A stretch of DNA of 28,356 nucleotides, from IMG/VR virus record IMGVR_UViG_3300026321_000245, positions 1 to 28,356 of that record; one strand, written 5' to 3'. This document shows, piece after piece, positions 3,402-28,356 of this stretch. The position numbers and the translations under genes are program-made. Each line of letters opens with the position of its first letter. Within the stretch, counting starts at the first letter, position 1. The notes under the pieces were generated by a model that saw nothing but the letters and a program-made list of their open reading frames with translations, was not told where the DNA came from and ran no database searches. The DNA is from a virus.

Positions 3402-4606
3402 TAGAATGCCCGTATTAACATTATTACTGTCTGGGAAGGTGTATTGTTATCTAATACAATATTTAATGCACTATCGATGTCAGAAACATTAACAGTATAT
3501 GATTGTACATTATTAATAGCGATATTTGAAGGTGCTCTCAAGCCTGGAGCAGTCATAGAAATATCAAATGTAAAATGATTATGCGGAGCAAGACTTGATT
3601 CTGTGAATACTTCACCAGAATGACTCAAGTTTGTTGGATAAGTTACACTTTGATCTCCACCAATATAGTTCTTCTTACCCATAATACCTGATGTATATGG
3701 TGGTGGGAAGACACCAGTATGTGCAATCATTTGGTGGCCATAATTATAAGTGTCACCAAAGGCAGGAGTATTACCACTACCTTGTGGTATAGTTCTAACC
3801 TTACCGATTTCAGGAATAGTTCCTTTAGTCGCAGGGTCGAATGTCTTTCCTTCACTGGTTACAACAAGAGTATTGTCATCATAGTATGTGATAGATCCGA
3901 ATCCATTCTGCCAACTATCAGGACCATCATTACCACCTGCACCAGTTAGGTTAGCAGATTCATAATCAGGTGATCCACTAGTAGCATAGAATGTAGTCTC
4001 GAATGTTTGTACATACTTACCAGAAGGTTGAGCAGTAGTATATGATCCGGGATGCCTATGAGCAGGTGTGTGGTCTATACCTAGTTTTCTACCGAGAACA
4101 TAGTATGTCTTAGACCATGTAGGATCATTCAGAGTAAACTCTTGAATCCTACCTGCCATATTATTAATACCATCAAGTTGGAATGTTATGTCAGTGTCAG
4201 CACTGTAGATAGCAGGGGGTGTTACCGCAGTACCATCACCTTCAATCAAAGGACCAACAACAGAATCAGCATTCGGTTGATTGTACTGATACTTTGTCTC
4301 ACCCAACATGGTTCTCTCGATATCAACCAGTGCTCTACCATTTAAGTTAGGAACACGAAATTGATCTGCCGCTTCATAATCAGGGTAGTTACCCTTAATT
4401 GATGTAGCAGTGGGACCATATGTGTTACCAATCATAGATGCTAGTAAAGGATATTCACTAGCAGAATGAGTAGCTCCATCACATAGTATCCAACCATGTG
4501 GCACGTTAGGGGGATTTGATCCTCTAAGCGTTGAGTTACCTCCCCATGGCATTATAGTGCCAATGGGTGAGGTCTTCATTGTTTTGACTCTGTTGTAGAA
4601 TGCCAT
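3401..4606 (-). CDS. Tail-collar fibre protein, first of three (401 aa)
   Basis: This is a probable short-tail-fibre-like or fibre-tip protein. The collar domain spans residues about 10-100, with SPIGTIMPWGG, HGWILCDGATHSASEYPLLA and FRVPNLNGRALVDIERT. The rest is Gly/Asn/Thr-rich, as expected of a beta-structured trimeric fibre. HxH motifs are AHRHPGSY near residue 185 and APHNHF near residue 345. The start codon overlaps the stop of the giant fibre gene (TAATG), and its own stop overlaps the next collar gene in the same way. This placement suggests that the three collar proteins are distal parts or alternative tips of the tail-fibre apparatus built on the 4988-residue protein. That assembly model is inference. 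Confidence 0.86.
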   Translation of the reverse strand: MAFYNRVKTMKTSPIGTIMPWGGNSTLRGSNPPNVPHGWILCDGATHSASEYPLLASMIGNTYGPTATSIKGNYPDYEAADQFRVPNLNGRALVDIERTMLGETKYQYNQPNADSVVGPLIEGDGTAVTPPAIYSADTDITFQLDGINNMAGRIQEFTLNDPTWSKTYYVLGRKLGIDHTPAHRHPGSYTTAQPSGKYVQTFETTFYATSGSPDYESANLTGAGGNDGPDSWQNGFGSITYYDDNTLVVTSEGKTFDPATKGTIPEIGKVRTIPQGSGNTPAFGDTYNYGHQMIAHTGVFPPPYTSGIMGKKNYIGGDQSVTYPTNLSHSGEVFTESSLAPHNHFTFDISMTAPGLRAPSNIAINNVQSYTVNVSDIDSALNIVLDNNTPSQTVIMLIRAF

Positions 4607-10600: not shown

Positions 10601-13600
10601 TATCCAATGTACTCATTCTGTTGTCTTGGGTTCTTGAACCTAGCACCGTATACTGATCCAGTTACAGGCTTAAGTACAAGTTTCTGTGGGATTAACTTAC
10701 GAGTATCATCAGTTCTTCCCTTGATGACGAATCCATTGATAGGATCTCTTGCATTCTCAATATCCTTTGGAATAACATAACGAATCTTATATGTTCTGTC
10801 ATCAGCAGTACGATCATCCTTAAGACGCTCGAACCACATGTCTGTAGATCTAGGAGTTGCCTGAAGGTCTGGTTGATTGATTCTCCAGAAGATGTTATCA
10901 TCATATCCAGCAGGGGATCCAGTAACCTCATCCTTACACTTGATGTACCACTTACCAGAAGTAGTAACAGCATCAGTAAAGGTTGGGTCAAATGCCATTG
11001 GTGACCTGCTCTTGTTAGCATAGGTCGTGAACTTGATACCAGTTTGACCAGGATCAAATGTAACTCGTACATCATTCAGTGCATCTGCCTTGCTTAGGTG
11101 GATGGTGAATACCTTATCATTTTGGTAACGAACATAGAATGATACGTTAGGGTTAAGTCTACCGTAATCTGGGCTAGAATTATCTGTTACAGCAACGTTA
11201 GCATTGTTTGCAAACGCTGTAGATACTAGAGGTAGTTGTGAACCATCTTCAGGTCTGAAGAATACTTGCTGTGCTGTTGTGGAGTTAGAAGGTTTGTCAA
11301 CAATGTTTGGAATCTCTGTCTCGAATCCACCATTACCTGAGAAGGATGCAGCAGTTGCTAAGTTAGTTCTGTATGAATGTAGATCATAACGATCATCAAG
11401 TACGAACTGATAGATATCAATCTCAACATCAGGATCAACACTAGTTGTTTCAGATGAATAGATGTAGATACCAGCAGCAGCATTCTCCTTAGAGGTTGCA
11501 AGCATTAACTTGGTCTGGTCACTACCATTGAAGTATGTTGTACCACTATAATCAATAGGTTGTGTGGTTCTGCCCGGAGCAATTACATAGTATGTTACGT
11601 TAGGTTCAAATCCATTAGGTAGTCTAACAACACGCTTGTCTACTGAAACATACTTACCTGTTACTGAGTCAAAGCGAGGACGTGGAACCAACCTTACAGG
11701 TGTTCCAGTCTCGAAGTCGTGAGCATTAGTTGAACCAGCACCAGTAGTATCAATTGTGAATACTGTTGATCTGGAAGCAAGCAATGATGTATTAACTGTC
11801 TGTTCCTGACGAGTAACAGAACCAAGACCACTACTAATAATGGTGGTGATGTTACCAATCAGTGTATTGATTGCAGCTGCTGTTGCAGCACACTCAGCAT
11901 TACTTGAGTTAGTTGTTGAGTCTCTAGTGATATCTCTATCAGCATCATTAACAGGACCAATAACCTTAGTTAATGGTGTTGTATCTGCCCATGCTCCACT
12001 AGCATATGTGAAGTATAGGTTGATTGAACTGCTTGACAGGATAGCATTAACTGTATTACCTGTTTCTAAACGTGATCCATTAACACCCAATTCAATTGTG
12101 GTGTTACTAATAATTTTCTTGACGTATGTTCCTTCTGGGATGGTTGTGTAGAGTGGTGTAGTACCTGCTGCCTTAAGAACACCTTGTTCGTAAGGAGATA
12201 CACCGCTTTCATCATACTCTACTACACTCATACCAATTACAATACCACTTGTATCACCTACATCAACGGTTGAAGAACCAGCAGTAGTTGTACAGTTGTA
12301 TGCTAGGAAGTCGAAGTTCCTCATTGCAGCGGTACACATGTTACCGACATAGTTCCAAGCATCAATTGTTTCAGATGCTTGACCATCAACGAAGTCTAAC
12401 TGAGCATTAACGAAGTATGCTTCACCAGCCTGTACACTGTTGATGTTACCACCAAGACGTAAGTCATTGACAACAGCATCTACGATGTAAGCAACGTCTC
12501 TGAAGCACTTAGATTGCTCATTGTTGATAGTAAAGTCACCCGTATTAAGTGTTGGTAGACCGTTAAGGTTACCAGCAAGGATGGAATCAACAAGGATATC
12601 GAATAGAGTTTCAATTGTATTTCTAACGTTAGCACAATCCCACTCACCATTACTTACGTTAACTAGGTCATTAAGATTACCAGCAAGTAAACTGTCAGTG
12701 AAGATGCCAACTAATGTATCAACTGTAGAAAGAACCTCTGCACAATTACCTTGAGTATATGTGGTAGGTTGTGTTGGTTCTGTTCTTGTGATACTATTAA
12801 GGTTACCAACAGCAGCATCAGTACCAACACCCTGAATAATAATATCCATCAAGGTGTCTGTTGCTGATATCATGCTGTTACATGTAGCAGCATCATAAAG
12901 ACCAATTAAGGTTAGATCTTTAACCTGTTGGTTAGTAGCATCAGGAGTCCAGTTAGTAGGTGTAACTGTTGTGTTTGTAATAACCTTTTCTATAACACCC
13001 TTTGCTTTACTATAAACTTCAGCAACTTCTGTACGCTCACTCTGTGGCATAAGAAGTGTAACACCATTGAAGTTATTGGTTACGAAACCGTTACCGATAT
13101 CATATACCTTATGGTTACCACCATACTTCATGTTGTATGCAACGTCTCTTACAACATCGTATACATCATCCAAACAATCTTGCTCTGTATAACCAGTAGC
13201 AGGAGTGTATGAAGTATGAACTGTCTTCATCTCTTCATATGCTTGCTTGGCAATGAACTTGGAGTTAGCAAGAAGTAATACAGATACGTCAGCATTAGCA
13301 TCAGATACTATTGGTGGTTCACCAGTAGTGTCAGTAGTAATACTTGTGTCTTTCTGTGATAGTTGGTTGTTGATAGCAAGGTTGATCTGATCTTGAACCT
13401 TATTCAAACCAACGATAACTTGGTTAACTTCTCCTTGTACACCATTACTTAACAGTGCATTACCAGAGAAATATGTCTTGAGGTAAGAGATTGTATACTC
13501 GTTACCACCGAACCAAAGGTCTTGTGCTATAGCATCTATAATCCTACCTAAGTCTCTTCTACACTTAGTCTCATAGTTTGTAGAAGAATGGTTGGAATCA

Positions 13601-16600
13601 TATGCATTGATAGCAGTAATTGCTTCAGTAATGATGCTATTCTTATTAGCAAGAATAAGGTTACGTGCATCCTTGTTACGGCTAGCATTTAGAGAAGAAT
13701 CTCCTCTGAAGATTGTAATTGCATTATTCTCAGCAGATACAAATGTATGAGGATACTCACCACCTTCTATAACAAGTCCTCTTTCAAGGTTGTTTGCAGT
13801 AGCAGATACAAATGTATGAACAGTTGTATTGGTTGAAGGAATAGTCTTCAGTACTTGTACATCAAATGTGTTTGCTTGTACATTGAAGATCTTCAACCAC
13901 TTACCAGCAGAAGGATCTGTAGGACGTGGATATGTGTGGTTAGTATTGTGACTATCCTGAGCACATGTAAATGTTAATGAGTTGTTTGCAAGTTTGATAT
14001 GCTCTCCATTTACAAATCCGTGACCATTAACAGTCAGTGTCATAACACCAGTAGAAGGCTGATATACAGCACCAGTTACTGAGTGTGTGTTACTAGTATT
14101 AACGAATGTATGAGTATAGTTACCACCAGCAATCACTGCGCCAGAAGCAGCAGATACAAATGTATGTGCTGTGGTATTAGAAGAAGTACCAACGTTAAGT
14201 GTGATACTATCTGAAGTTACAGATGCAATACTGATTGCAGTATTGTATGCAGGATCTCCTGCTCTAGGATAAGTATGGTTAGTACCATTACTATCTTGAG
14301 CACATGTAAATGTTAGAGAATTATTTCCTAGTTTAATACTTGTACCAGCAGTTAAAGTGTGAGTACCAATTGTAAGTACCAACACACCAGAGGTGGGATT
14401 ATAGGTAGCTCCACTAACATTGTAGTTAACAATAGGAGATTGACCAACGTTAACCGTGACTGTTCCATCTTGTCTCTTAACTCCATTACTTACAGCAGAT
14501 ACAAATGTATGTGCAGATGTATCAGGAGATGCACCAATATTAACCTTAAATGTGTCAGCAGTTACAGCGGAAATTTCTAACCACTTACCACTTACAGGGT
14601 CAGTTGCTCTAGGATAGGTATGGTTTGAAGCATTACCATCCATAGCACAGGTCATTGTTAATGAACCATCAGCAATCTTAACCATATCTCCATTAGAGAA
14701 TCCATGACTAGAGATAGTTAATACTAATTCACCAGTAGTAGGAGCATATGTTGCGTTAGTTGCTGTATGATTTGTAGATCCAACTGCGGTAACATTCAGT
14801 GCAGTATTATATGCTGGATCACCTGTTCTTGGATAAGTATGGTTTGTACCATTGTTATCCATACTACAAGTAAAGGTCAAAGCATTCTTCGCTAACCTAA
14901 TACTTGTTCCTGTATTAATTGTGTGACTACCTAAAGTAAGAACTAGATCACCAGTTACAGGGTTGTAGGTAGAATTATTAATATCATATCCTTTAGCAGT
15001 TTTTGCACCAACATTTACTGTAAGTGTATTAGCTGTAGTGGAACTGATAGGTAATGTCTTACCATATACAGGATCAGAAGCACGAGGATATTTGTGTTGA
15101 GTAGAGTTATTGTCTTGTTCACATGTGAATGTCAATGCGTCTGCATTAATACTCAGAGAATCACCTGCCTTCTCAATACCATTAGCAGATGCAGATATAA
15201 AGTTGTGGATATAATTACCACCAGTTATGAGTGCATTAGTATTAGCACTTACAAATGTATGAGTGTAGCTACCACCTGTCTTAACAGAACCAGCAACAGC
15301 ACTAACGAATGTATGTGCTGTAACGTTAGGAGATACACCAATGTTAATCTTAATAGTTCCAGACTGCTTGATTAAACCATCAGCAGTAGCAGAAACGAAT
15401 GTATGTGTATACTGATCATGAGCAGGTGAAATACCTACATTAACTTCAAATGTATTTGTAGTCTTATTAGCAACTGTCAACCACTCATCAAAAGCAGGGT
15501 CGGATGTTCTTGGATATGAATGGTTTGATTGTCCACTATCCTTATCACAAATAAATGTTAGAGATTCCTTAGCAAACTTAACCTTATCTCCATTGTTTAA
15601 TCCATGACCACTAACAGTAATTACCATTACACCAGTAGAAGCAGTGTAAGCAGCACCTGTTACAGTAGTAGTTGTACTACCAACTTCCTCTACAACAATA
15701 GAATTGTCATAGAATGGGTCAGTCTTCTTGGTTAAACCATTATTAACAGCAGAAACAAAATTGTGAGTTGTAATGTTAGAAGAAACTCCTACATTAACTT
15801 GGAAAGTATTTGTTTGTACGTTGAAAACACTTATCCACTTACCACTAATAGGGTCACTAGAACGTGGATATGTATGGTTAGAACCATTGCTATCCTGAGC
15901 ACAGGTGAATGTTAGCGAATCATCTGCTAACTTAATCTGTTCTCCGTTGTTTAATCCATGACCTGCAACTGTCAACTCAAGAACACCAGTAGCAGGAGCA
16001 TAAGTTGCATCCGTTACTGTAGCAGTTGATGTAGTAGTTCTAGGATATGAATGATTGCTTCCGTTACCGTCTTGAGCACATGTAAATGTTATAGCACCGT
16101 CTGCCAACTTGATGTTGTCAGATGCTTTAGTAATACTGTTAGCAGCAGCAGAAACAAAACTATGTGTAGTTGTGTTAGAAGAAGGAACGGATGCTAATAT
16201 CTGTACAGCAAACGTATCTGTAGTAACACTACTGATTTGTAACCATGCACCACTTACAGGGTCAGTTGCACGAGGATAAGAGTGGTTAGTACCATTACTA
16301 TCTTGATCACAAGTAAAGGTTAATGCACCGTCATCTATTCTAATCTTCTCACCGTCTTGGAATCCGTGACCAGCAACAGTAAGTGTTACAAAACCTGTAT
16401 TAGGATTATATGCAGCAGTAGTTGGAGTATATCTCTTAGCACCACGTATGTTGTGGTTACCAATGGTCAACTCCATTATACCTGTTGTAGGTGTATAAGT
16501 TGCATTGGTTGGAGTATATTGTACAAGAGGTGATGCACCAACATTAAGTGTAACGCTGTTAGCTGTAGTACCTGTAATCTGTATTGATTCACCAGATACA

Positions 16601-19572: not shown

Positions 19573-19609
19573 GATTTTACTCTGACCCTGCTATAAAAAT
19601 ATCCTCATC

Positions 19610-20686
19610 TTATTTATACCGCAGAGCGTCAGTCCAGTTCTTAAAACTGTAAGGATGCCATATAGCATACTGCTCTGTTGAACTGATGAGTTGATCCCTA
19701 GTAGACACTTTTACATGGTCTAATATACGATCAAATTCCGCGTAAGGTTTGAATGAAAGAGTTTTTGCATATTCCCAAAAAGGAGTGTCGTACTTAGATC
19801 CGTTTTGATAATGCCATAATACAAATGTCTCAATTTTCCGCATTCTATCCATTATTTCATTGTCAACTGCCTCTCTCGTAGCACGACCTTTAACAAGATG
19901 CATATAAGTTGTTTCCGCAACATGTTTATAGAAATGTCCTGAAGTAGCCTCCAATGGTTCTAAGAATGCTAGTCTATTACCATTAAGAATAGTCCTTTTA
20001 CCTCTAAAGATACTTTTAGCAATATAATTACGAAATGATAGATCACCATCAGGTTCTACGTCAAAAATTTTGCTGAGATTTTTTCTCGCTTCTTCCTTAT
20101 TTGTTATTGCATTATTGTATAGGTAACCATAAGATGTACTATCATGATTAGGAACAATAAATGTCCACCCATCAGGTGTAGCAACAGAATCAGTATAATT
20201 CCTAGATGGTTCTTTAGGTCCAGTTGCTAATATTACAGCATTTATTGGATTAGTTAACCTATGATAATCTTCTAACGTATCTGGTATACCTCTACAATCA
20301 AAAATATAATCAGCATCTATCTCTTGTTCTGGATCGCTAATATTTTTCTCTATGAAGTTATATTTGTCTAATACAACATCCTTCAATAAATCAGGAACAT
20401 AATGAGCAGACATTATATTCATTGAAAATGGATGAAATATATCTTCCCTTGTCCAATCTCTATAACGTATTCCTATCTTTTGTGTTGCTTTAATATTATT
20501 GTTACTATGCCAATCAGTTCCCAATGCTGCATATATCAACCCTAACACATCAGGTGTAGTTCCTTGCCCCACTCTTTGAATAGGAACATTAGGATCATGG
20601 TATACATCCACTTCACTACCATAGAATCCATAATGCATTGCAGTAATACATCCACCTAATCCAGCACCAAGAACTGCAATCTTCAT
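19610..20686 (-). CDS. Tryptophan-halogenase-like flavoprotein (358 aa)
   Basis: This is related to FAD-dependent tryptophan halogenases (PrnA/Trp_halogenase family), which use reduced flavin, O2 and halide to halogenate aromatic substrates. Visible family marks are the FAD-binding VLGAGLGG at residues 5-12, VGQGTTPDV near 39-47, and a Lys near residue 70 in KIGIRYRDW, in the place of PrnA Lys79. Others are GWTFIVP near 174-180 in place of the usual WxWxIP, LEPLEATSG near 242, and LWHYQNGSKYDTPFW near 290-304. It is much shorter than the 500-540 residues usual in the family, so substrate and even halogenation activity are uncertain. An oxidising flavoprotein is the safer call. I chose the ATG at 20686, which overlaps the upstream dioxygenase stop as ATGA, over an in-frame start four codons earlier. 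Its last codons contain the late promoter of the fibre gene. Confidence 0.75.
   Translation of the reverse strand: MKIAVLGAGLGGCITAMHYGFYGSEVDVYHDPNVPIQRVGQGTTPDVLGLIYAALGTDWHSNNNIKATQKIGIRYRDWTREDIFHPFSMNIMSAHYVPDLLKDVVLDKYNFIEKNISDPEQEIDADYIFDCRGIPDTLEDYHRLTNPINAVILATGPKEPSRNYTDSVATPDGWTFIVPNHDSTSYGYLYNNAITNKEEARKNLSKIFDVEPDGDLSFRNYIAKSIFRGKRTILNGNRLAFLEPLEATSGHFYKHVAETTYMHLVKGRATREAVDNEIMDRMRKIETFVLWHYQNGSKYDTPFWEYAKTLSFKPYAEFDRILDHVKVSTRDQLISSTEQYAIWHPYSFKNWTDALRYK
19611..19618 (-). promoter_or_regulatory. T4-type late promoter for the giant fibre gene
   Basis: The minus strand reads TATAAATA, the T4-family late -10 box, 38 bases upstream of the fibre start codon. It lies within the last codons (Tyr-Lys-stop) of the upstream halogenase-like gene. 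T4 late promoters need no -35 box. Confidence 0.7.
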
Positions 20687-21183
20687 AGTAGACCCCAAAT
20701 TTGTATAGTTATTCTAATAGCAAAACCATCAGGTGCTACTGAAGTGACTAAATGGTTCTCTGAAGTAGTATTAACCACCATTACATTCTTTTCTGGAAGA
20801 ATAGTATTCCATTCCTCTGTATTCTTATCTTGCCATATAAACCACCCACCAGAGTTAGGATGCCACTTTTCATTCATGTATATGGTTGCACCAAACTTAC
20901 GTGATTGATCATTATGCATAGCAATACCAGAATGAGGTTGCCAGATATAATACTGAGCAACAACCTCACATTCTGGTATATACTCTTTAATCTCCTGTTT
21001 AATCAACTCGGTTGTTTCTGGTGACATCATAGATGCCATTGTATTACCAGATATACCTTGCCTTAATTCTGGTGGCCAAATCATGGTACTAGATGCCCAT
21101 ACATTCTTTGGCAGTTTCTCATTGATCTCCTCCTTACATTTCTGAAAGAGAGTATCACTTAAGGCATTTTTTATTATTTTCAT
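20683..21183 (-). CDS. 2OG-Fe(II) oxygenase, prolyl-hydroxylase-like (166 aa)
   Basis: This is a probable 2-oxoglutarate and Fe(II)-dependent dioxygenase of the double-stranded beta-helix fold. The metal motif is H90-x-D92 in GIAMHNDQS. The distal His is H144 in SENHLV, and the likely 2OG-binding Arg is R157 in AIRITIQ. The short length fits a bare catalytic domain. The start at 21183 lies only seven bases from the 3' end of tRNA-Asp, so no ordinary ribosome-binding site fits between them. The gene overlaps the halogenase-like gene by ATGA and is therefore probably co-translated with it. Substrate is unknown. Such small 2OG oxygenases are common in cyanomyoviruses, and hydroxylation of protein, nucleotide or small molecule are all possible. 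Confidence 0.8.
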   Translation of the reverse strand: MKIIKNALSDTLFQKCKEEINEKLPKNVWASSTMIWPPELRQGISGNTMASMMSPETTELIKQEIKEYIPECEVVAQYYIWQPHSGIAMHNDQSRKFGATIYMNEKWHPNSGGWFIWQDKNTEEWNTILPEKNVMVVNTTSENHLVTSVAPDGFAIRITIQIWGLL

Positions 21184-21189
21184 GATCTA

Positions 21190-21263
21190 CGGGATAGATG
21201 GGACTCGAACCCACGACCTCTTGCGTGACAGGCAAGCGTTCTAACCAACTGAACTACTACCCC
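21190..21263 (-). tRNA. tRNA-Asp (GTC)
   Basis: It folds as a cloverleaf of 74 bases. The acceptor GGGGTAG pairs with CTATCCC (one G-T pair), and the discriminator is G. The anticodon loop is CTGTCAC on the stem CTTGC/GCAAG, giving GTC. The T arm contains GTTCGAGTC. No CCA is encoded. Confidence 0.93.
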
Positions 21264-21265
21264 AA

Positions 21266-21337
21266 TGCCATCAGGGGGATTTGAACCTCCGACCTTGGCT
21301 TTACAAAAGCCCTGCACTACCACTGTGCTATGATGGC
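21266..21337 (-). tRNA. tRNA-Thr (TGT)
   Basis: The acceptor GCCATCA pairs perfectly with TGATGGC, and the D stem is GCAC/GTGC. The anticodon loop is TTTGTAA, giving anticodon TGT. There are likely mismatches at 27-43 (G-A) and in the T stem (A-C), so the fold is slightly degraded. The discriminator is A and no CCA is encoded. Only two bases separate it from tRNA-Asp. Confidence 0.88.
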
Positions 21338-21340
21338 AAA

Positions 21341-21412
21341 CTGGGATGGCTGGGCTCGAACCAGCGACAAATTGATTAACAGTCAATTGTTCTACCACTG
21401 AACTACATCCCA
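21341..21412 (-). tRNA. tRNA-Asn (GTT)
   Basis: The acceptor TGGGATG pairs with CATCCCA, the D stem is GTTC/GAAC, and the anticodon stem ATTGA/TCAAT carries loop CTGTTAA, giving GTT. The T stem is GCTGG/CCAGC, the discriminator is G and no CCA is encoded. Its first base directly follows the cpeT stop codon. Confidence 0.93.
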
Positions 21413-21940
21413 TCACTGTCTTTTAAAATTAAGATGACCGTAATTAGATCCCCATATCTTCTGATGAGTTACAGGATCTAAACCTTCATCCATAACATCT
21501 AACCCTTCGGTGTTTAGAATAATACTGTTCCTGAGATATGTGCTCTTACCATTCCATTCAATGAAACATTGGCATTCTGGATCAGTACCACCTTCATACC
21601 TCTTATCACCTGTCTTCTTAAAGACCAAATCACATCCATCTCTATAAGTAAGAAGATCGTCTGTTAGTAATTCTAGATTAGTTCCTTGTAAGAACCGTTG
21701 CTCTTGATCACCATCAATCTCATAATTATGAGTACGAATCTCATCTATACCCTCAATTACATCAATGACGTACTGTAGGTATGGTCTATTCCTTAGATAG
21801 TTATATGCCTGTTCTCCATAAAAACGATTGTCACCAATACGTTTATAGGTAATCCAAATGTGAGCATAGCGTGTCGGATGAGACTGTGCTTGTCTCTTAT
21901 TTGAAAATTGTCCTTCCAATAATGTAAGAAATTCACTCAT
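21413..21940 (-). CDS. cpeT: CpeT/CpcT-type phycobiliprotein lyase (175 aa)
   Basis: CpeT/CpcT proteins are bilin lyases or chaperones that help attach phycobilins to Cys of phycobiliproteins in the cyanobacterial light-harvesting antenna. The whole protein follows the family pattern. It has SNKRQAQSHPTRYAHIWI near residues 13-30, FYGEQAYNYLRNRPY near 40-54, NYEIDG near 72-77, LTYRDGCDLVFKKTGDKRYE near 97-116 and WGSNYGHLNFKR at the C-terminus. At 175 residues it is slightly shorter than host CpeT but lacks no visible block. Cyanophages are known to carry cpeT as an auxiliary gene that may adjust host antenna pigments during infection. It overlaps the small gene upstream by ATGA and abuts tRNA-Asn, so it sits in a polycistronic unit. 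Confidence 0.9.
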   Translation of the reverse strand: MSEFLTLLEGQFSNKRQAQSHPTRYAHIWITYKRIGDNRFYGEQAYNYLRNRPYLQYVIDVIEGIDEIRTHNYEIDGDQEQRFLQGTNLELLTDDLLTYRDGCDLVFKKTGDKRYEGGTDPECQCFIEWNGKSTYLRNSIILNTEGLDVMDEGLDPVTHQKIWGSNYGHLNFKRQ

Positions 21941-22203
21941 GTTGGTATAACGTCAGGATTATATAAATCTAAATCGAATAGAACTGGATGACACTCTTCC
22001 TGAGTTAAATAATCTCCAAACCTAAGAATATCCTGTAAGGTATATTCTGGATTAGAGGCACACTCAGTGAGAACCCACTTATCTTCTTTGTCTGCCTTCT
22101 CAAGAGAATCAAACGCAAAGGGGATGTTCTCAATATAATACAGCAAAACTGGTTCTTTGTCAAGGAAAACATACCGTCTTGACACTCTATATGGTCTTGT
22201 CAT
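21937..22203 (-). CDS. Small protein of unknown function before cpeT (88 aa)
   Basis: I do not recognise this gene. It encodes a soluble-looking, acidic small protein (MTRPYRVSRRYVFLDKEP... ending YNPDVIPT) without signal peptide, membrane segment or clear metal motif. An aromatic-rich strand-like start (VLLYYIENIPFAFDS) is followed by a helix-like DILRFGDYLTQEE. The stop overlaps the cpeT start as ATGA, so the two are probably made together, and a helper role for CpeT is possible but unproven. I chose the ATG at 22203, preceded by GAAGG, rather than an in-frame TTG at 22212. The GAAGG-to-ATG spacing is short, so the start is not certain. Confidence 0.72.
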   Translation of the reverse strand: MTRPYRVSRRYVFLDKEPVLLYYIENIPFAFDSLEKADKEDKWVLTECASNPEYTLQDILRFGDYLTQEECHPVLFDLDLYNPDVIPT

Positions 22204-22230
22204 GACCTTCAATCTACTACTACTATTTAA

Positions 22231-22812
22231 CTACCGACCAATGTTGAAAGATACCGAAATCCTATCTTCTTCTGATTGATTTACGTCTACCTTATGGTAC
22301 AGTGAAGATGGGAATAATATTATCATCCCCTCTGTTGGTGTCATATAATATGCTGGATGCACAGGTAGTATCTTTTGAAATTGATCTGAATAAGAACTCA
22401 TTTCATCCCACATAGTAAATGTATTGGGATTATCAAAAACTAACTGACCAGAATCCTTTGGTGCGTTAATCCAAAAGACACCAGAAAATACAGATCCAGG
22501 ATGATCATGCTTGTGGTTGAATGATCCTGGTTTGTTTATATTGATCCAGAGATCTTCTATATGAAATTCTTGTCCATACTTTAAAGTTATAGAAAAGAAC
22601 TCATGACGCAATGTTCTTTCTACTGCATCCAATATAGGATTGGGACCATATGTGTAATCAAATGAAGATTGCCAACCTCCTCTATTTGATATAACTCTAC
22701 CCTTTGGATCACTGTCATATTCCCCATAGATATAATCTACCAATTCTTCTTTATCAAAATCCTTTACATCATATGCATGTAGAGTAGAAGGAAATAATGG
22801 TATAATTTTCAT
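22231..22812 (-). CDS. 2OG-Fe(II) oxygenase, PF13759/TIGR02466 type (193 aa)
   Basis: This is a predicted 2-oxoglutarate/Fe(II) dioxygenase of the family often found in cyanophages and marine bacteria. The diagnostic block is LWININKPGSFNHKHDHPGS at residues about 88-107, followed by SGVFWINAPKDSGQLVFDNP near 110-129. This places candidate iron ligands at H102 and H104 (or D103). The distal His is H173 in SSLYHKVDV, and the 2OG-binding Arg is R184 in EEDRISVSFN. Length is typical for the family. Its start overlaps the stop of a 39-residue basic ORF by ATGA. It is unrelated in detail to the second oxygenase at 20683-21183, so the operon carries two independent dioxygenases. Substrate is unknown. 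Confidence 0.86.
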   Translation of the reverse strand: MKIIPLFPSTLHAYDVKDFDKEELVDYIYGEYDSDPKGRVISNRGGWQSSFDYTYGPNPILDAVERTLRHEFFSITLKYGQEFHIEDLWININKPGSFNHKHDHPGSVFSGVFWINAPKDSGQLVFDNPNTFTMWDEMSSYSDQFQKILPVHPAYYMTPTEGMIILFPSSLYHKVDVNQSEEDRISVSFNIGR

Positions 22813-22928
22813 CGCATAAGTTTCCTCTTTAAAAATTTCACCCTCTTCTTAGCAGAACGTAACGCCTGTGGCTTCAGGGTACGCTTTGCTTCTTTTTTAC
22901 TATGTTTTTGCCAATTCGGATACCTCAT
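22809..22928 (-). CDS. Short basic peptide overlapping two genes (39 aa)
   Basis: This frame begins MRYPNWQKHSKKEAKRTLKP and ends KRVKFLKRKLMR, so it is extremely Lys/Arg-rich. It starts inside the end of the 63-residue gene upstream and ends by ATGA overlap with the 2OG oxygenase start. It thus fills exactly the gap between the two, in the way genes are packed elsewhere here. AGGA lies two bases before the ATG, which is close for a ribosome-binding site. Nucleic-acid binding would suit the charge, but nothing else supports a function. It may be only a coupling ORF. Confidence 0.5.
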   Translation of the reverse strand: MRYPNWQKHSKKEAKRTLKPQALRSAKKRVKFLKRKLMR

Positions 22929-23091
22929 TGTCCTGTGGTCTATTAGGGGGTGTTGCTTCAGGTTGATTCCTTTGCTTTCTTATGAACTCACGTAGTTCTG
23001 GTCCTTCCTCCCATTCCCAGAGAGACTTACGACCCTTCTTGTCAACTGTTTCAAAAGATCTTTTGATTACAGCATCATCTCTAAGTTTCAT
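22900..23091 (-). CDS. Small charged protein of unknown function (63 aa)
   Basis: I do not recognise this protein. It starts MKLRDDAVIKRSFETVDKKG, continues with a Trp/Glu-rich stretch (SLWEWEEGPELREFIRKQR) and ends in a Pro/Asn-rich tail (PEATPPNRPQDNE). It has no membrane segment or signal peptide. It is the first gene after the promoter at 23203-23230, with a leader of about 105 bases that contains a strong hairpin. Its end overlaps the 39-residue basic ORF in another frame. It could be a small early regulator or host-takeover protein, but that rests only on size and promoter type. Confidence 0.65.
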   Translation of the reverse strand: MKLRDDAVIKRSFETVDKKGRKSLWEWEEGPELREFIRKQRNQPEATPPNRPQDNEVSELAKT

Positions 23092-23121
23092 AATGTTCTC
23101 TTTAAGATACAGTATATATGG

Positions 23122-23156
23122 TTAGGGTTTCTTCGCCCCTGGTATAGAAACCCTAA
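23122..23156 (-). promoter_or_regulatory. Leader hairpin upstream of the 63-aa gene
   Basis: Perfect 11-base arms (TTAGGGTTTCT and AGAAACCCTAA) enclose a 13-base loop. No T-run follows on either strand, so this is not a standard terminator. It lies in the transcribed leader between the 23203-23230 promoter and the start codon at 23091. It could be a protein-binding or stability element. Confidence 0.6.
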
Positions 23157-23202
23157 AAGATTAATCCAGAGCAGTCATAGGTAGCGATGCCTTGACCTTA
23201 AA

Positions 23203-23230
23203 ATTATAGCATAAAAAAAGAGGTTGTCAA
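23203..23230 (-). promoter_or_regulatory. Sigma-70-type promoter downstream of the HNH gene
   Basis: The minus strand has TTGACA (23230-23225), a 16-base spacer and TATAAT (23208-23203) with an extended -10 TG (TGCTATAAT). Both boxes are exact consensus, so it should be read by host RNA polymerase early in infection. It drives the 63-aa gene and probably the whole accessory operon. It begins six bases after the HNH stop codon. Confidence 0.8.
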
Positions 23231-23235
23231 CCCTA

Positions 23236-24069
23236 TTAATATTCTCTTTTTTCAAGATTCTCCCACCACCATAAAGGTTGTAGGTTTGAATAGTGTGCTG
23301 CCTCTTTGAATTGTTTTCTATCAGTTAAATCAAATTTTGATAATTGTTTCTTATGATCTAGATGCCATCCATCATGGGTCCAATTATCCCAAGTCATTCC
23401 TTCTTTAAATTGACTTTCTATATGATCTTTAAACTCTTCTATCGTGCAACCCAAATCATCAACAGCACTACCAGATTTATAATTGCCTTTGACAGCATCA
23501 CGCATTCTACCTCTCAGTCTGTAAGCTAACTTATACTGTATATTATTTTGATAATTTTTTTTCCTCCACTCATTAAACAGTCCCCTCTGTCTCTCTTTAA
23601 CATCAGGTCTTTGTCTATATGCTTTCCGTTTTGCTGCTTGTTCTGGAGTATAGAGTTCCTTGGCACGTTGTCTAAGTTTTTCTCTATTCTCTTCGCGGAA
23701 AACTCTTCCTTTTTCTAAAAATCTCTCTCTATTAGTTTGATAATGCTCTGCCTTCACAGCAGCGATTCTTTCTTTATTCTCTTCACGATATTTTTTGTCG
23801 TATGCTTTCTTTTTTTCTATAATTTCTGGTCTAGAGTAATACTCTTTATTCTGTTGCTTGATTTTTTCTTTATTCTTCTTTCTATAAGCAAGTTTTTGTT
23901 CTCTCCGTTTGTCCTTGTTCTTCTCAGCATATTCTTTCTCGTATGCTTTCTTTCTATCTTTATTATTTGCACACCACTCTCTTGTAGATCTCTTTATCTT
24001 TTCTTTATTCTTCTGATAATATGCTCTGGAGTACTCCTTTGCATACTCAGGATCTTTAAATGGACTCAT
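23236..24069 (-). CDS. HNH-family endonuclease with a long K/E-rich repeat arm (277 aa)
   Basis: The C-terminal 75 residues form an HNH-type nuclease domain: LGCTIEEFKDHIESQF, then GWHLDHKKQLSKF with His236 and the Asp-His pair at about 238-239, and SNLQPLW...ENLEKR. Residues about 1-185 are degenerate, highly charged repeats (for example YRKKNKEKIKQQNKEYY and YREENKERIAAVKAEHY), probably a long helical DNA-binding arm. Free-standing HNH nucleases in T4-like phages are usually homing endonucleases that spread themselves. Here the gene stands as a cassette between near-identical promoter elements. I chose the ATG at 24069 (MSPFKDPEYAKEY) because the GTG at 24108 lies within the upstream terminator hairpin. 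The chosen ATG is only seven bases past the -10 box, so the mRNA may be leaderless. Confidence 0.85.
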   Translation of the reverse strand: MSPFKDPEYAKEYSRAYYQKNKEKIKRSTREWCANNKDRKKAYEKEYAEKNKDKRREQKLAYRKKNKEKIKQQNKEYYSRPEIIEKKKAYDKKYREENKERIAAVKAEHYQTNRERFLEKGRVFREENREKLRQRAKELYTPEQAAKRKAYRQRPDVKERQRGLFNEWRKKNYQNNIQYKLAYRLRGRMRDAVKGNYKSGSAVDDLGCTIEEFKDHIESQFKEGMTWDNWTHDGWHLDHKKQLSKFDLTDRKQFKEAAHYSNLQPLWWWENLEKREY

Positions 24070-24076
24070 ACAAAAT

Positions 24077-24104
24077 ATTATAGCATAAAAAAAGAGGGTG
24101 TCAA
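24077..24104 (-). promoter_or_regulatory. Sigma-70-type promoter of the HNH gene
   Basis: The minus strand has TTGACA (24104-24099), a 16-base spacer and TATAAT (24082-24077) with an extended -10 TG. Over 28 bases it differs from the element at 23203-23230 at only one position. The -35 box lies inside the terminator hairpin of the preceding gene. Confidence 0.82.
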
Positions 24105-24115
24105 GCACCCTCTTT
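24087..24115 (-). terminator. Intrinsic terminator of the porin-like gene, merged with the HNH promoter
   Basis: A perfect 10-base stem (AAAGAGGGTG and CACCCTCTTT) with a five-base loop is followed on the minus strand by further Ts, making a run of seven. It lies about 20 bases after the stop codon of the 127-aa gene. The loop and descending arm also supply the TTGACA of the next promoter. Confidence 0.85.
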
Positions 24116-24134
24116 GAATTTATCTGATTAGAGA

Positions 24135-24518
24135 TCAGAATACGAACTTAGCTCCGACCTTAGCACCCCAGTTAACAACGTCTTCGTTGCTTACTTCGTC
24201 AGTGATGCCTGAAAGCTCACCGTAGATACCAAGAGTATCAGTAGCGGCGATGTTAAGACCAGCCTTACCAGAGATTTCTCCTTCAGATCCGTCTGTACCG
24301 TCAACTGCTGTGAAAGCAGGACCGCCTTGAACATAGAAACTAACTTTCTCAGAAGCATCGCCTTCATAACCTATATGAAGATCAGTTGTTGCTCCAGAAT
24401 AATCTCCATCAGGATATGAGAGATTGCTTTCGACATTCACGTAAGGACCAGCAAAAGCGGCTCCAGCGAGAAGGAAAGGTGATGCTGCTACAGCAGCGAT
24501 TGTTGATTTGATTGACAT
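24135..24518 (-). CDS. Secreted beta-barrel (porin-like) outer-membrane protein (127 aa)
   Basis: The start at 24518 gives a classical signal peptide: MSIKSTIAAVAA, a hydrophobic SPFLLAGAAFA core, then Gly-Pro after an AFA cleavage site near residue 23. The mature 104 residues consist of about six amphipathic strand-like stretches (YVNVESNLSY; TTDLHIGYEG; KVSFYVQGGPAF; ISGKAGLNIAA; LGIYGELSGI; WGAKVGAKFVF). They end in Phe, the usual C-terminal signal of outer-membrane barrels. The phage-encoded product would therefore be placed in the host outer membrane, where altering uptake or blocking superinfection are possible roles. It could instead be a virion protein. It has its own late promoter, a structured leader and a strong terminator, so it forms a single-gene unit. 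An upstream in-frame ATG at 24593 would add 25 residues before the signal peptide and is unlikely. Confidence 0.75.
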   Translation of the reverse strand: MSIKSTIAAVAASPFLLAGAAFAGPYVNVESNLSYPDGDYSGATTDLHIGYEGDASEKVSFYVQGGPAFTAVDGTDGSEGEISGKAGLNIAATDTLGIYGELSGITDEVSNEDVVNWGAKVGAKFVF

Positions 24519-24543
24519 GTTTGTTTTTAGATATCTCGCAAGG

Positions 24544-24580
24544 AAAAAACCCCACGGATGATAATTCCCCCGACATGGGG
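24544..24580 (-). terminator. Terminator-like hairpin in the leader of the porin-like gene (possible attenuator)
   Basis: On the minus strand CCCCATG (24580-24574) can pair with CGTGGGG (24556-24550), and six Ts follow directly (24549-24544). The same CCCC run can instead form the tight hairpin TTCCCC/GGGGAA (24582-24565), so the two folds exclude each other. The T-run ends 26 bases before the start codon. Confidence 0.5.
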
Positions 24581-24634
24581 AACTTTTGTACATCTACGCA
24601 GGGTTACGATCTTTCGAGTCCTTTGTATATTTTT

Positions 24635-24652
24635 GTGAAGATTATGCTTCAC
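24635..24652 (-). promoter_or_regulatory. Short hairpin at the 5' end of the porin-like gene's leader
   Basis: A perfect six-base stem (GTGAAG and CTTCAC) has a six-base loop, just after the late promoter. It would stand at or near the 5' end of the transcript and could protect it. Confidence 0.45.
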
Positions 24653-24657
24653 TTCAG

Positions 24658-24665
24658 TATTTATA
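24658..24665 (-). promoter_or_regulatory. T4-type late promoter for the porin-like gene
   Basis: The minus strand reads TATAAATA in an AT-rich setting, 140 bases upstream of the start codon at 24518. The box matches the one upstream of the giant fibre gene exactly. The porin-like product would then be made late, together with virion proteins. Confidence 0.68.
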
Positions 24666-24699
24666 ATACTTCATTATCTAAGAACCGTAAAGCCCCCTT

Positions 24700-24721
24700 G
24701 TGCCAGTTTGTGAACTGTCAC
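24700..24721 (-). terminator. Hairpin after the beta-helix structural gene
   Basis: The arms GTGACAGTT and AACTGGCAC (one mismatch) with loop CACA begin one base after the stop codon. No T-run follows, so it may protect the mRNA 3' end or act as a weak terminator rather than a strong intrinsic one. Confidence 0.4.
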
Positions 24722-24722
24722 A

Positions 24723-25745
24723 CTAGTTTAAGAATATATTAGCACCTTCAATAAAGACGCTAGTGGCAGCCTTAAGTTTCGCCGTACCAGCAGTTGCTTC
24801 AATATCTATGTTACCAGCAGTCGCCTTAACGTTAATAGCTCCAGCTGCCTTAACATCCACTCCACCTTTACCTTCAATGGTTGTTTTTCCTGTGGATTCA
24901 TATTTTGCAGTGGTTGTTGCTTTCTGTTCTATATTGAGCTTAGCATCAACAAGATACTTCCCTGCACTATCAATTTTCATACCACCACGAGAAGTTGTAC
25001 ATTTATATGTCATCAGTCTATTGGTAAGCAATGGGAATAGAATCTTACCACCATAAGTAGCAGTCTTAATACCACCAATCCTTTCATTAAGGTCACCTTT
25101 AATCTCAAGACTAAAATGACCAGTAGAAGCAAATGCTACTGTTCCTCTTGGATCTCTTGTGTTAGTATTAATCTCTTTAACCCACCTCTCCAACTTCATC
25201 ATCTTCTGTTCCCAGTAAGTCTCCACCTTACTCTCTATCGATCCTGCATTGATCTTCAACGGACCATCACCATTTTTCCCTGCTTGGAGTAAAATATCAC
25301 CACCTACCAATGATAAAGTTTCTGTAGCATTTAAACTAATTTTATTTGCAGTAACTACTACTGAATTTCCTGTGCTTGTAACTACTACATTACCATTGGC
25401 AGCAAGTTCCATTGCATCAGCTTTTGAATCTGCTCCCTGATTGACTTCTATCTTAAGTGATTCTTCAAAGAATAAATGTCCTCCACCACCTGCACGAACA
25501 TTAAGAAATCCAGAACCAGAACCCAACAATGGGTTTCTTGGTCCTGTCCTAACAGTCATACGATTATTAGACTCCATACAAATGAAGTTATCACCAGGAC
25601 CATCAATACTTAATCTTAAACCTTCCCCATCTGGTAATTCAGTTTCGTATATAACTGAACGAGTCATGTGACCCTTGTATACTACATTATACTTGGGATT
25701 ATCCTTTAGTTCTTGAGTTTCGTTGGGGGTAATAGGTAATGTCAT
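24723..25745 (-). CDS. Beta-helical virion structural protein, likely baseplate spike (340 aa)
   Basis: The protein contains two runs of short alternating strands typical of triple-stranded beta-helices in phage spikes: NGNVVVTSTGNSVVVTANKI near residues 112-131, and GAINVKATAGNIDIEATAGT with AKLKAATSVFIEGANIF at the C-terminus. A helical stretch (VETYWEQKMMKLERWVKEIN) near the middle could help trimerise it. There are no catalytic motifs. In T4 the membrane-piercing beta-helix is the C-terminal part of gp5. Here the preceding gene is gp5-like and ends without such a helix, so this protein may supply the needle. I chose the ATG at 25745, which overlaps the preceding stop as TAATG, over an in-frame TTG at 25754. 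Confidence 0.75.
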   Translation of the reverse strand: MTLPITPNETQELKDNPKYNVVYKGHMTRSVIYETELPDGEGLRLSIDGPGDNFICMESNNRMTVRTGPRNPLLGSGSGFLNVRAGGGGHLFFEESLKIEVNQGADSKADAMELAANGNVVVTSTGNSVVVTANKISLNATETLSLVGGDILLQAGKNGDGPLKINAGSIESKVETYWEQKMMKLERWVKEINTNTRDPRGTVAFASTGHFSLEIKGDLNERIGGIKTATYGGKILFPLLTNRLMTYKCTTSRGGMKIDSAGKYLVDAKLNIEQKATTTAKYESTGKTTIEGKGGVDVKAAGAINVKATAGNIDIEATAGTAKLKAATSVFIEGANIFLN

Positions 25746-28356
25746 TATGGGCAATCCACGTAACGACCAGTACCAATCTTAGTAGCACCAACATCAGCAA
25801 GTGCTTGAGTACCTAAACAAATCATTGATGGTATTAATTGAGCACCGTTACCATATTTACCAATAACTCTAATCTCTGGAGTTTCTGTAAAAGTAACTGC
25901 TCTATCCAATACTCTAGCACCAATAACAAAACCATCCTCATTAATGACTGCCTCAGCAATACCTTTAACACCATTAACATAAACTTCTGGTTTCTCAATA
26001 TATCCAATGCCAGGTCTAAGAACAGTAAACGTGTCTATAATACAACGTTTACCATTACCTGAAGCAAGATTCTTCTTATATCCATATCCACCACTTATAA
26101 CACGAATCTCTGTAAGATATCCATCACCATCAAGTAATCCGAAAGCATTAGCACCAATTCCTTCTCCTTTAACAACTACAAATGGTGGTGATTCCCATGG
26201 AGTTCCAGGATTCTTAATTGGAATATCTATGATAGACCCATTTTCATCAGTAATAACTTCTGCTGGATCTACAATTGGTGGTACAATACCTAAACCAGGA
26301 TCTGTTTCTGGTGTATCACCTTCTCCTAGATCAAAGTCATCTACAGTTTGATCAGTAGGTGCTTCAATTAATACATCACATGATGCTCCTTTACTATGAA
26401 TGGTAAGCGTTAAAGTCTCATCATCTTCCTTAGCACCATCTTCTTCAATACCAATTGTTATATTGGCTTTGTTATTATTAACAACAAATTCTCCCGTCAA
26501 CTGACCACCAAGAATATCATCACCTGTTATACCATTACCACTTAAATTATAATAAGCAGCCGTTCCATTAGCAACATTAGTTGTTGTAATTGTGTAGATA
26601 ATAAACTCTCCTTCTTTTACTGTTGTCCTATCACTAGTTACCTTCCACACGTCTGTTATACCAATCTGACCATTAGGATCATTATCTTCGCCATCTCCGG
26701 GTACTGGATCAACTACTGAATCAGGAAACTCGTCATCTACAGGTCCAAGAGGATCATCTGATGGTGGTATGTATGGATTAACTGGTTGTTGTATATCTTG
26801 TTCCTTAATAGTACATCTTCCAATATTTTTGACATACTTTGTTCCGTAACCACTACTCTTATCTGGACTATTCAAATCCAATTTAACATAGAAATACTCA
26901 TCAGTTTCTTTCTCTGGATTAAATATAGTTTCTATGATAAGTTGCTTAGATGTTTCATTTGGAGCAAATCCAACTATACCATCTCTAACAACATAATCTA
27001 CATCTGCTGTAGCAGTACCTTTCTTTAAAGTTTTAAATGTTAAAGATGAAGCTATGTCAGTAACTCCTTCTCTTGTTATAGTAAATATTGCTTCTTCACC
27101 TTCAGTAACCTCGATATTATCAATATCATAGATTATCGTCTCATCTGTTGGCTTTGGTACACCACCAGTAAATCCAACAGTATTCAATAGTAATGGTTTC
27201 CCTTTAAATGCATCTTCACAAATGTACTGATTATAATCTGCTGTAGTACCATCAAATGTCTTTTCAATCTGCGCTAAAAGTTCATCTAAAGGATCCAACT
27301 CCTCTTCATCATCAGCTGTAATAACCGATTGCTCTCCATTTGTGCAATACTTATCTATCTTCTTACAATCTAAATCAGAACCAGAGCATTGAATACCAAG
27401 TAATTTTAAAACATAGTTGATAGCACCACCAATTATGTTAAGTGGAACTGCTATAGCACCCAATATATCCTGTAAAGGACCGAGAATATCTTGCAATAAA
27501 CTCTCCATCAAGGACATAATTTTACTTAAGATACCGCCTATCAACTCATCAATCTGACAAGCAACTGCACGATATATCTTATCAATATAACTCATCAAGA
27601 GATTAGTAAGCCACTTTGCAATGCGCTCACCAATATCTGCCATCTTACATCCAATGTTGGCAAGTATCTTATTGATCCATTTCATTATATTTGATAATGC
27701 ATTACCTTTCTTAGTAGGTCGTAGAGTTGCATTAATCAATGCTTGACCAGCAAGAGTCACCTGACCATTAATAAATCCCTTTACATTCGCAATAAGAGTA
27801 CGAACAAGAGCCATGAATTTGTTAGTATATTTCTTGGCAACATATAATCCATCATATAATTTACCAGTTACCTTACCAACATAATACGTTCCTATCTTAC
27901 CATCATTATTTTGAATCTCTGCCAAGAATTCACTGAGAACCAAAGCACCTTTAGTCTTAAGATCAGTACAAGGATTTGCACTTGATTGACACCATTCCAA
28001 TCTAGCAGTATTAGACATGTTCTTTGGTATTGGAACAGCATCTAAAATAGGATTTATAGATACTATCTTAGCATCAGATAATCCACTACCCCATGAATTA
28101 GCACTATAATCAGATTGTACACCACCTTCTTTATTTTCAACTAAACCTACTGCTCCCTCAGTTCCAGCAAACATGCGATCTGCTGGAATCTTTCTTGTGA
28201 GACTATCTATTTCATCTGGACGCTCAAAATTAACAACAGTTGTAGCACGAGGAGTATGTCCAACAGACCCCATTATTATTGGTTTCTGCCTCTCATTATC
28301 AAGGTAGAAACCAACAACAAAACAACCTATTTGTAACTGTGGATGAGCACCACCAG
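25745..28356 (-). CDS. gp5: gp5-like baseplate hub protein with Calx-beta domains (N-terminus cut by window edge)
   Basis: The frame stays open past the internal Met at 28273 to the window edge. It reads GCFVVGFYLDNERQKPIIMG before SVGHTP, which resembles the end of the OB-fold of T4 gp5, so the true start lies outside. Numbering from the Met at 28273, residues about 140-290 are predicted helices, some hydrophobic (LQDILGAIAVPLNIIGGAI). Calx-beta-like domains lie near 379-464 (VTEGEEAIFTITREG; GTATADVDY) and 541-634 (TVKEGEFIIYTIT; DDETLTLTI), with an acidic, Pro-rich linker between them. GYGY-type repeats (VISGGYGY; PGIGYIEKPEVYV) occupy about 720-840. No T4-type lysozyme domain is visible in the part present. 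The protein likely forms the baseplate hub around the spike encoded next. Confidence 0.78.
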   Translation of the reverse strand, partial: GGAHPQLQIGCFVVGFYLDNERQKPIIMGSVGHTPRATTVVNFERPDEIDSLTRKIPADRMFAGTEGAVGLVENKEGGVQSDYSANSWGSGLSDAKIVSINPILDAVPIPKNMSNTARLEWCQSSANPCTDLKTKGALVLSEFLAEIQNNDGKIGTYYVGKVTGKLYDGLYVAKKYTNKFMALVRTLIANVKGFINGQVTLAGQALINATLRPTKKGNALSNIMKWINKILANIGCKMADIGERIAKWLTNLLMSYIDKIYRAVACQIDELIGGILSKIMSLMESLLQDILGPLQDILGAIAVPLNIIGGAINYVLKLLGIQCSGSDLDCKKIDKYCTNGEQSVITADDEEELDPLDELLAQIEKTFDGTTADYNQYICEDAFKGKPLLLNTVGFTGGVPKPTDETIIYDIDNIEVTEGEEAIFTITREGVTDIASSLTFKTLKKGTATADVDYVVRDGIVGFAPNETSKQLIIETIFNPEKETDEYFYVKLDLNSPDKSSGYGTKYVKNIGRCTIKEQDIQQPVNPYIPPSDDPLGPVDDEFPDSVVDPVPGDGEDNDPNGQIGITDVWKVTSDRTTVKEGEFIIYTITTTNVANGTAAYYNLSGNGITGDDILGGQLTGEFVVNNNKANITIGIEEDGAKEDDETLTLTIHSKGASCDVLIEAPTDQTVDDFDLGEGDTPETDPGLGIVPPIVDPAEVITDENGSIIDIPIKNPGTPWESPPFVVVKGEGIGANAFGLLDGDGYLTEIRVISGGYGYKKNLASGNGKRCIIDTFTVLRPGIGYIEKPEVYVNGVKGIAEAVINEDGFVIGARVLDRAVTFTETPEIRVIGKYGNGAQLIPSMICLGTQALADVGATKIGTGRYVDCP

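Follow-up and report, generated by a model that had tools for sequence, protein, structure and literature searches.

The promoter-early stem-loops (PeSLs) of T4-like phages are reportedly the subject of Arbiol et al. 2010 (doi 10.1093/gbe/evq006) and Comeau et al. 2014 (doi 10.1093/gbe/evu129). The passages of PMC4503421 that deal with PeSLs describe them as mobile composite promoter-terminator cassettes of T4-like phages, and judge them to be sparse in cyanophage S-PM2 and unlikely to explain its gene gain. Other arrangements are comparable in part: lambdoid morons are single genes with their own promoter and terminator between conserved genes, F-CphI-type endonucleases with an Endo VII motif (PMC6083498) are encoded by free-standing cyanophage genes between conserved genes, and manA RNAs (RF01745) form leaders.

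The DNA analysed here (the window) is a virus record of 28,356 bases, whose gene content (baseplate hub proteins, a PF24653 outer-membrane-like protein, CpeT, tryptophan halogenase, 2OG oxygenases and three tRNAs) marks it as a ~28-kb fragment of a T4-like cyanophage. One ORF of 4988 aa (4606-19572, minus strand) lies between tail-collar-like proteins and an auxiliary metabolic gene cluster, and the three tRNA genes are in tandem (21190-21412, minus strand) between cpeT and a 2OG oxygenase gene. An HNH gene in this window is bordered by two similar elements, A and B, which are best read, by analogy, as cyanophage counterparts of PeSLs. As in PeSLs, a sigma-70-like promoter (12/12 in both elements) and a stem-loop terminator (a 10-bp stem in A, degenerate in B) share one intergenic sequence, and this sequence is repeated at boundaries of variable genes that are apparent sites of gene insertion or loss, two of them in the window. 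Recombination-derived mini-circles in virions are a further trait of PeSLs. The cyanophage form differs in that its layout hardly varies (the -35 falls inside the hairpin, the U tract inside the spacer and the -10 at +4), that each genome here has few copies, and that structured leader RNAs often follow. It also differs from the lambdoid morons, in which each gene has a private pair of signals, whereas one shared, repeated phage-type terminator-promoter sequence is used here. The HNH gene resembles the F-CphI-type genes in being free-standing between conserved genes and in a match to an Endo VII-family profile; however, the match is weak, and neither an intron nor an association with psbA is seen. 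Finally, an element with the same core stands directly before manA RNAs, as element B does before a leader RNA in the window, but this leader has another structure and no Rfam match.

Anatomy of the two elements

The large genes of this region are on the minus strand, so that upstream means higher coordinates. The features of the locus are as follows.

24135..24518, minus strand: OMP, cyanophage outer-membrane-like beta-barrel protein (PF24653, Pfam E 9.3e-44), the gene upstream of HNH
24091..24115, minus strand: intrinsic terminator hairpin of element A, 10 bp, then U tract; predicted end of the OMP transcript
24077..24104, minus strand: promoter of element A, -35 TTGACA at 24104-24099, spacer formed by the 3' arm of the terminator plus the U tract, and extended -10 TGCTATAAT ending at 24077; predicted driver of the HNH gene (promoter scan; same core before HNH in contig L138)
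23236..24069, minus strand: HNH/endonuclease VII-like ORF, 277 aa (weak PHROG matches and conserved residues)
23220..23234, minus strand: degenerate hairpin of element B, a weak terminator (dG -4.6, z -0.45)
23203..23230, minus strand: promoter of element B, -35 TTGACA at 23230-23225 and extended -10 TGCTATAAT ending at 23203; predicted driver of the leader RNA and downstream genes (promoter scan; -10 position before the leader anchor in 53/53)
23121..23196, minus strand: conserved pseudoknotted leader RNA, with a P1 hairpin whose loop pairs with GGCGA and a P3 hairpin whose loop pairs with the 3' strand (P4) (alignment; no Rfam match)
22900..23091, minus strand: first ORF 3' of the leader, 63 aa (phrog_558)
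22231..22812, minus strand: 2OG-Fe(II) oxygenase (PF13759, E 8.9e-26), next gene in the predicted element B transcript

The original prediction, made from the letters of the window, was that two 28-base promoter elements one base apart stand before and after the HNH gene, the upstream copy being fused to a perfect terminator hairpin. Both points are borne out. The 28-mers ATTATAGCATAAAAAAAGAGG[T/G]TGTCAA occur exactly at 24077-24104 (A) and 23203-23230 (B); a search of the window that allowed up to 3 mismatches gives no third copy, and shuffling predicts 0. On the coding (minus) strand both read TTGACA[C/A]CCTCTTTTTTTATGCTATAAT, in which 16 nt separate a perfect -35 from an extended -10 (TG before the -10) that is also perfect. 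A scan of 9.4 kb (19000-28356) for sigma-70 promoters gives no other 12/12 match. Element A overlaps a hairpin at 24115-24091, AAAGAGGGTG-CUUGA-CACCCUCUUU, with 10 perfect pairs followed by U's (dG -16.1, z -4.1), and the same stretch in element B forms only a degenerate stem, a point that the original prediction did not mention. Because the hairpin's loop and 3' arm contain the -35, and the -35/-10 spacer contains the U tract, terminator and promoter are interlocked rather than merely adjacent. The idea that one sequence joins the terminator of the previous gene to the promoter of the next thus holds as sequence anatomy with a predicted function, and A and B may be expected to work as promoters and terminators. 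The HNH ORF starts (24069) 7 nt past the -10 of element A and ends 5 nt before the -35 of element B; its mRNA is probably leaderless, given the short distance from the -10 to the ATG.

A and B are alike over 28 nt with 1 mismatch, or 31 nt with 2, and no further than the functional motif, so that a recent duplication of A giving rise to B is not supported. Since the two match only over a promoter that is conserved across the whole class of elements, their likeness need not mean duplication.

The element class and its leader RNA

The element had also been regarded as a flank specific to the HNH gene, against which a scatter over many unrelated gene boundaries was to speak. Such a scatter is found, and this part of the prediction is abandoned: the 21-nt core CCTCTTTTTTTATGCTATAAT is present in at least 120 marine viral contigs and also in cultured T4-like cyanophages, at unrelated gene boundaries, and element B appears to be the promoter of a leader-RNA operon. 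Among the matches listed, a perfect stem, 6 bp or longer, ends in the core in 85 of 98 distinct contexts, and TTGACA is present at up to one mismatch in 40 of the 98, the remainder keeping the extended -10 only. Across the class the -10 is almost always 4 nt past the U tract. In the three complete genomes used for the count (P-SSM7, P-HM1 and P-SSM2), an exact TATAAT stands directly behind 10 of 37 hairpin terminators, compared with ~1% of other T-runs (P about 1e-11, Fisher test). Each of 14 cyanophage records carries 1 to 7 copies of the element at up to 2 mismatches, compared with 0 to 1 for the reversed control, and most of the matches of leader queries (BLAST) to 118 cyanophage records in the phage collection are due to the element alone. 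Syn1 and P-SSM2 carry it behind regA, and several phages have it in front of td. Single copies are located at P-SSM2 142801-142828 and P-SSM7 177775-177802. At several other elements, too, an ATG stands 6-7 nt past TATAAT (24069-24082 in the HNH case).

The exact core also occurs in 32 bacterial genome contigs, mostly Bacillota and none of them with a Prochlorococcus or Synechococcus title, and there is no sign in these of a host origin of the element. The fusion of hairpin, U tract and ATGCTATAAT is also seen at gene boundaries of some AT-rich Bacillota MAG contigs (L332, L343 and L354), in pairs ~1-2 kb apart.

The leader RNA behind element B is 76 nt long and begins at about +1 (23121-23196). 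Instances collected with a sequence pattern in its 5' half represent 53 distinct contexts, all of which have a -10 (up to one mismatch) 21-25 nt before the leader anchor, and a hairpin terminator is fused in front of the leader in 42 of them. An alignment of 44 sequences (A1) supports P1 and hairpin P3, along with a loop interaction (P2) and a pseudoknot helix (P4), and shows strong covariation: 93.8% of its pair cells are standard, compared with at most 51% when the pairing is slid, and 128 cells are changed on both sides, compared with 35.8 in shuffles, in counts that ignore relatedness. All of P4 is paired (100%), and 6 of its 9 pairs covary; P1 and P2 rest mainly on conservation. A covariance model (R1) recovers members outside its seed with a shorter P1 (P-SSM2 144035-144104, L035, L104, L119 and L024). 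Folding of the single sequence is unremarkable (z -0.69), as expected if the leader is pseudoknotted. No Rfam family matches it even at E up to 10, and its assignment to manA RNA (RF01745) or another Rfam family was rejected as no covariance model matched above the gathering score. Judging from the alignment, the leader is a conserved, pseudoknotted RNA without an Rfam match, and it is the most novel component here. In P-SSM2 a purM-annotated ORF follows closely behind the leader, and the genes downstream of leaders include a tryptophan halogenase (Pfam), several small proteins and, as we presume from their sequence, PstS-like and PurM-like proteins. With window-type and L230-type queries, the only leader-length BLAST match in the phage collection is the single-cell virus AG-345-E08. 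Leaders of another kind, manA RNAs (RF01745), lie directly behind the same terminator-promoter element in L014, L019, L023, L063, L085 and L136, and the layout of -10 plus manA recurs.

Proposed gene insertion at element boundaries

Relatives were sampled as 80 contigs with an OMP gene, giving 68 distinct OMP 3' ends with the window included. An intrinsic terminator (hairpin and U tract) closes the OMP gene at 67 of the 68; a -10 at up to one mismatch follows the terminator in 36 of these 67, and in 33 of the 36 it is exactly 4 nt past the U tract. There is no HNH match at the OMP loci of the 80 contigs. The best syntenic relative, L242, has the order hub842-hub343-OMP-g63-oxygenase-...-cpeT-oxyB-halogenase, with full synteny without HNH, one element standing between OMP and g63; its proteins are 61-87% identical to those of the window for most genes and 41-53% for hub343 and the 63-aa ORF. 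In L261 and L230, OMP is followed by one element and then by the same leader RNA as behind element B. Empty sites with a single element, which the prediction had expected in relatives, are therefore present in L242, L261 and L230. No close relative of the window phage that lacks HNH was found, L242 being the nearest by synteny. We propose that OMP, one element and then the next gene or leader was the ancestral layout.

The HNH ORF consists of Lys-rich helical repeats and a C-terminal DGWHxDH...NLQPLW..NL.K motif. The PHROG HNH and EndoVII profiles match it weakly (E about 1e-3), and H236, D238, H239, N262, N271 and K274 are invariant in 12 homologues, so that an HNH-type catalytic motif is present. 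Pfam gave no match, and the AlphaFold model (pTM 0.36) gave no significant Foldseek match. The ORF is thus a predicted HNH/Endo VII-like homing endonuclease. It is an optional gene, absent at the 80 OMP loci and present at another site in L138, which holds the only close homologue found (75% identity). There the gene lies one gene upstream of its position in the window, between hub343 and OMP and directly behind TTGACATCCTCTTTCCTTATGCTATAATATTTT, with the promoter core without the terminator arm and with no second copy downstream. Because the same promoter core precedes a 75% identical HNH gene at a different site, the promoter travels with the gene; on this comparison HNH has used more than one site with the promoter core moving along. 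The suggestion that HNH carries its regulatory unit along therefore holds for the promoter core, but not for the second twin. L242, L217, L230, L248 and the window (a one-base variant in the last two) have one copy of the 13-bp site motif TAGTGTGCCAGTT, and L138 has two, one on each side of HNH. The doubling may be a target-site duplication around the L138 gene, against which the recurrence of the motif elsewhere has to be weighed. Since the L138 gene is flanked by this different, itself recurrent repeat, more than one insertion route is possible. The 13-nt motif TAGTGTG[AC]CAGTT / AACTG[TG]CACACTA recurs in cyanophage intergenic regions, often as inverted pairs (L138 at 2907 and 3728, the window at ~24720, many OMP loci).

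A parallel insertion is evident behind gp23, which we take from its translation to be the major capsid gene. In seven contigs (L013, L062, L063, L079, L098, L111 and L113) gp23 is followed by one element and manA, whereas in L055 and L118 it is followed by an element, a 334-aa gene (phrog_2615), another element and manA. The manA RNA is above the Rfam threshold in L013, L062, L063, L111, L113, L055 and L118, and was assigned by sequence similarity in L079 and L098. In L055 and L118 a 53-bp exact direct repeat spans each element, and identity to the L113 flanks is 94% over 1.5 kb on the left and 98% on the right, over the 100 nt that remain before the contig ends. A copy of the gene with 65% identity is found in L024 in the order regA, element, gene, element, manA.

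L055 11342-12460 (rc); L118; L024 4722-5842: phrog_2615 gene, flanked by duplicated elements, then manA RNA

As compared across these contigs, gp23/manA is a clean case of a one-gene insertion at an element with duplication of the element, with a cargo that differs from HNH, and the phrog_2615 gene is a one-gene passenger at both the gp23 and the regA boundary. The originally proposed insertion is thus best supported at gp23/manA; at the HNH locus the likeness of A and B does not reach past the promoter, so that recombination between the two is unsupported there. Gene gain or loss with a breakpoint in the element is seen at gp23/manA, whereas at the HNH locus there are only empty sites in more distant relatives.

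Explanations and implications

We consider it quite probable that A and B are composite terminator-promoter elements and that the OMP boundary received HNH as a one-gene cassette together with its own promoter core. Seen in the sequence itself are the anatomy and spread of the element, the empty sites, the second HNH site with the same promoter and the gp23/manA cassette. When the polymerase leaves the upstream gene, the G+C hairpin would form and transcription would stop in the U tract; the same DNA would serve the next gene as a strong sigma-70 promoter, with the -35 in the hairpin and the extended -10 four nt past the U tract. Element A would part OMP from HNH, and element B, with its weakened terminator, would part HNH from the operon that opens with the structured leader RNA. 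HNH and its promoter core would have entered the boundary between OMP and the next gene as a one-gene cassette. After stopping at an intrinsic terminator, bacterial polymerase often remains on the DNA and is able to begin a new transcript from the closest promoter (PMC6978380, PMC11347151); for such a polymerase, fusion of promoter and terminator would be the ideal layout. Stop, RNA release and restart is the most likely sequence of events, and by analogy the polymerase may be recycled from stop to start at the element. A gene could then drop in without disturbing its neighbours, as the left copy would insulate the upstream gene and drive the newcomer, and the right copy would keep the downstream operon running, a role that is also ascribed to PeSLs of T4-like phages (cited through PMC4503421).

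The elements could instead be independent, ordinary signals whose near-identity reflects convergence on a consensus, HNH having come by homing with repair in the flanking genes and without their involvement. That A and B share nothing beyond the functional motif, that near-identical elements stand at unrelated genes and that cyanophages are known to have free-standing homing endonucleases of the Endo VII type, such as F-CphI (PMC6083498), all agree with this. We nevertheless regard it as rather unlikely, because the offset from terminator to -10 is fixed, far above chance, the gp23/manA cassette carries a 53-bp duplication of the element, and the HNH sites of the window and of L138 are both within intergenic regulatory motifs. 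For the HNH gene of the window we infer arrival by PeSL-type recombination at the element, and not by homing repair alone.

If the 28-mers were the ends of an HNH mobile element that excises by recombination between them, direct repeats around the gene and single-copy empty sites would be expected, and both exist. The distribution of the element largely refutes this and makes it very improbable: the elements flank many non-HNH genes, the L138 gene lacks a downstream twin, and element B fronts a leader-RNA operon of its own, with the leader behind a fused element in 42 of 53 contexts. We give still less credence, close to none, to a hairpin that is mainly regulatory (attenuation or mRNA protection) rather than a terminator. 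Element B retains its promoter without a stable stem, which indicates that the stem is dispensable for the promoter sequence; however, hairpin and U tract at 67 of 68 distinct OMP ends make a textbook intrinsic terminator, and the position of the -10 behind the U tract places the hairpin outside the downstream transcript.

Returning to the composite-element explanation, we argue from these loci that marine cyanophages undergo at least single-gene insertions at elements of this kind, contrary to the doubt expressed in the passages of PMC4503421 on S-PM2. We also lean, by a little, to a wider picture in which marine T4-like cyanophages have a standard "stop-and-restart" docking element that takes single-gene cassettes, a common passenger of which would be a pseudoknotted leader RNA of a class not yet described, riboswitch-like as a candidate and starting at about +1 before unrelated metabolic or moron genes (a PstS-like protein, purM in P-SSM2, Trp halogenase, or the 63-aa ORF and then a 2OG oxygenase). 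As the leader is present in the cultured phage P-SSM2, it can be tested. The element would provide a natural test of polymerase recycling from a terminator to an adjacent promoter, and should the leader RNA prove to be a metabolite sensor, abundant ocean viruses would have a new class of regulator. PeSL-type shuffling would be extended to marine cyanophages, where it had been doubted, and there would be a concrete sequence rule for the entry points of flexible genes in cyanophage genomes, which may be expressed immediately on arrival.
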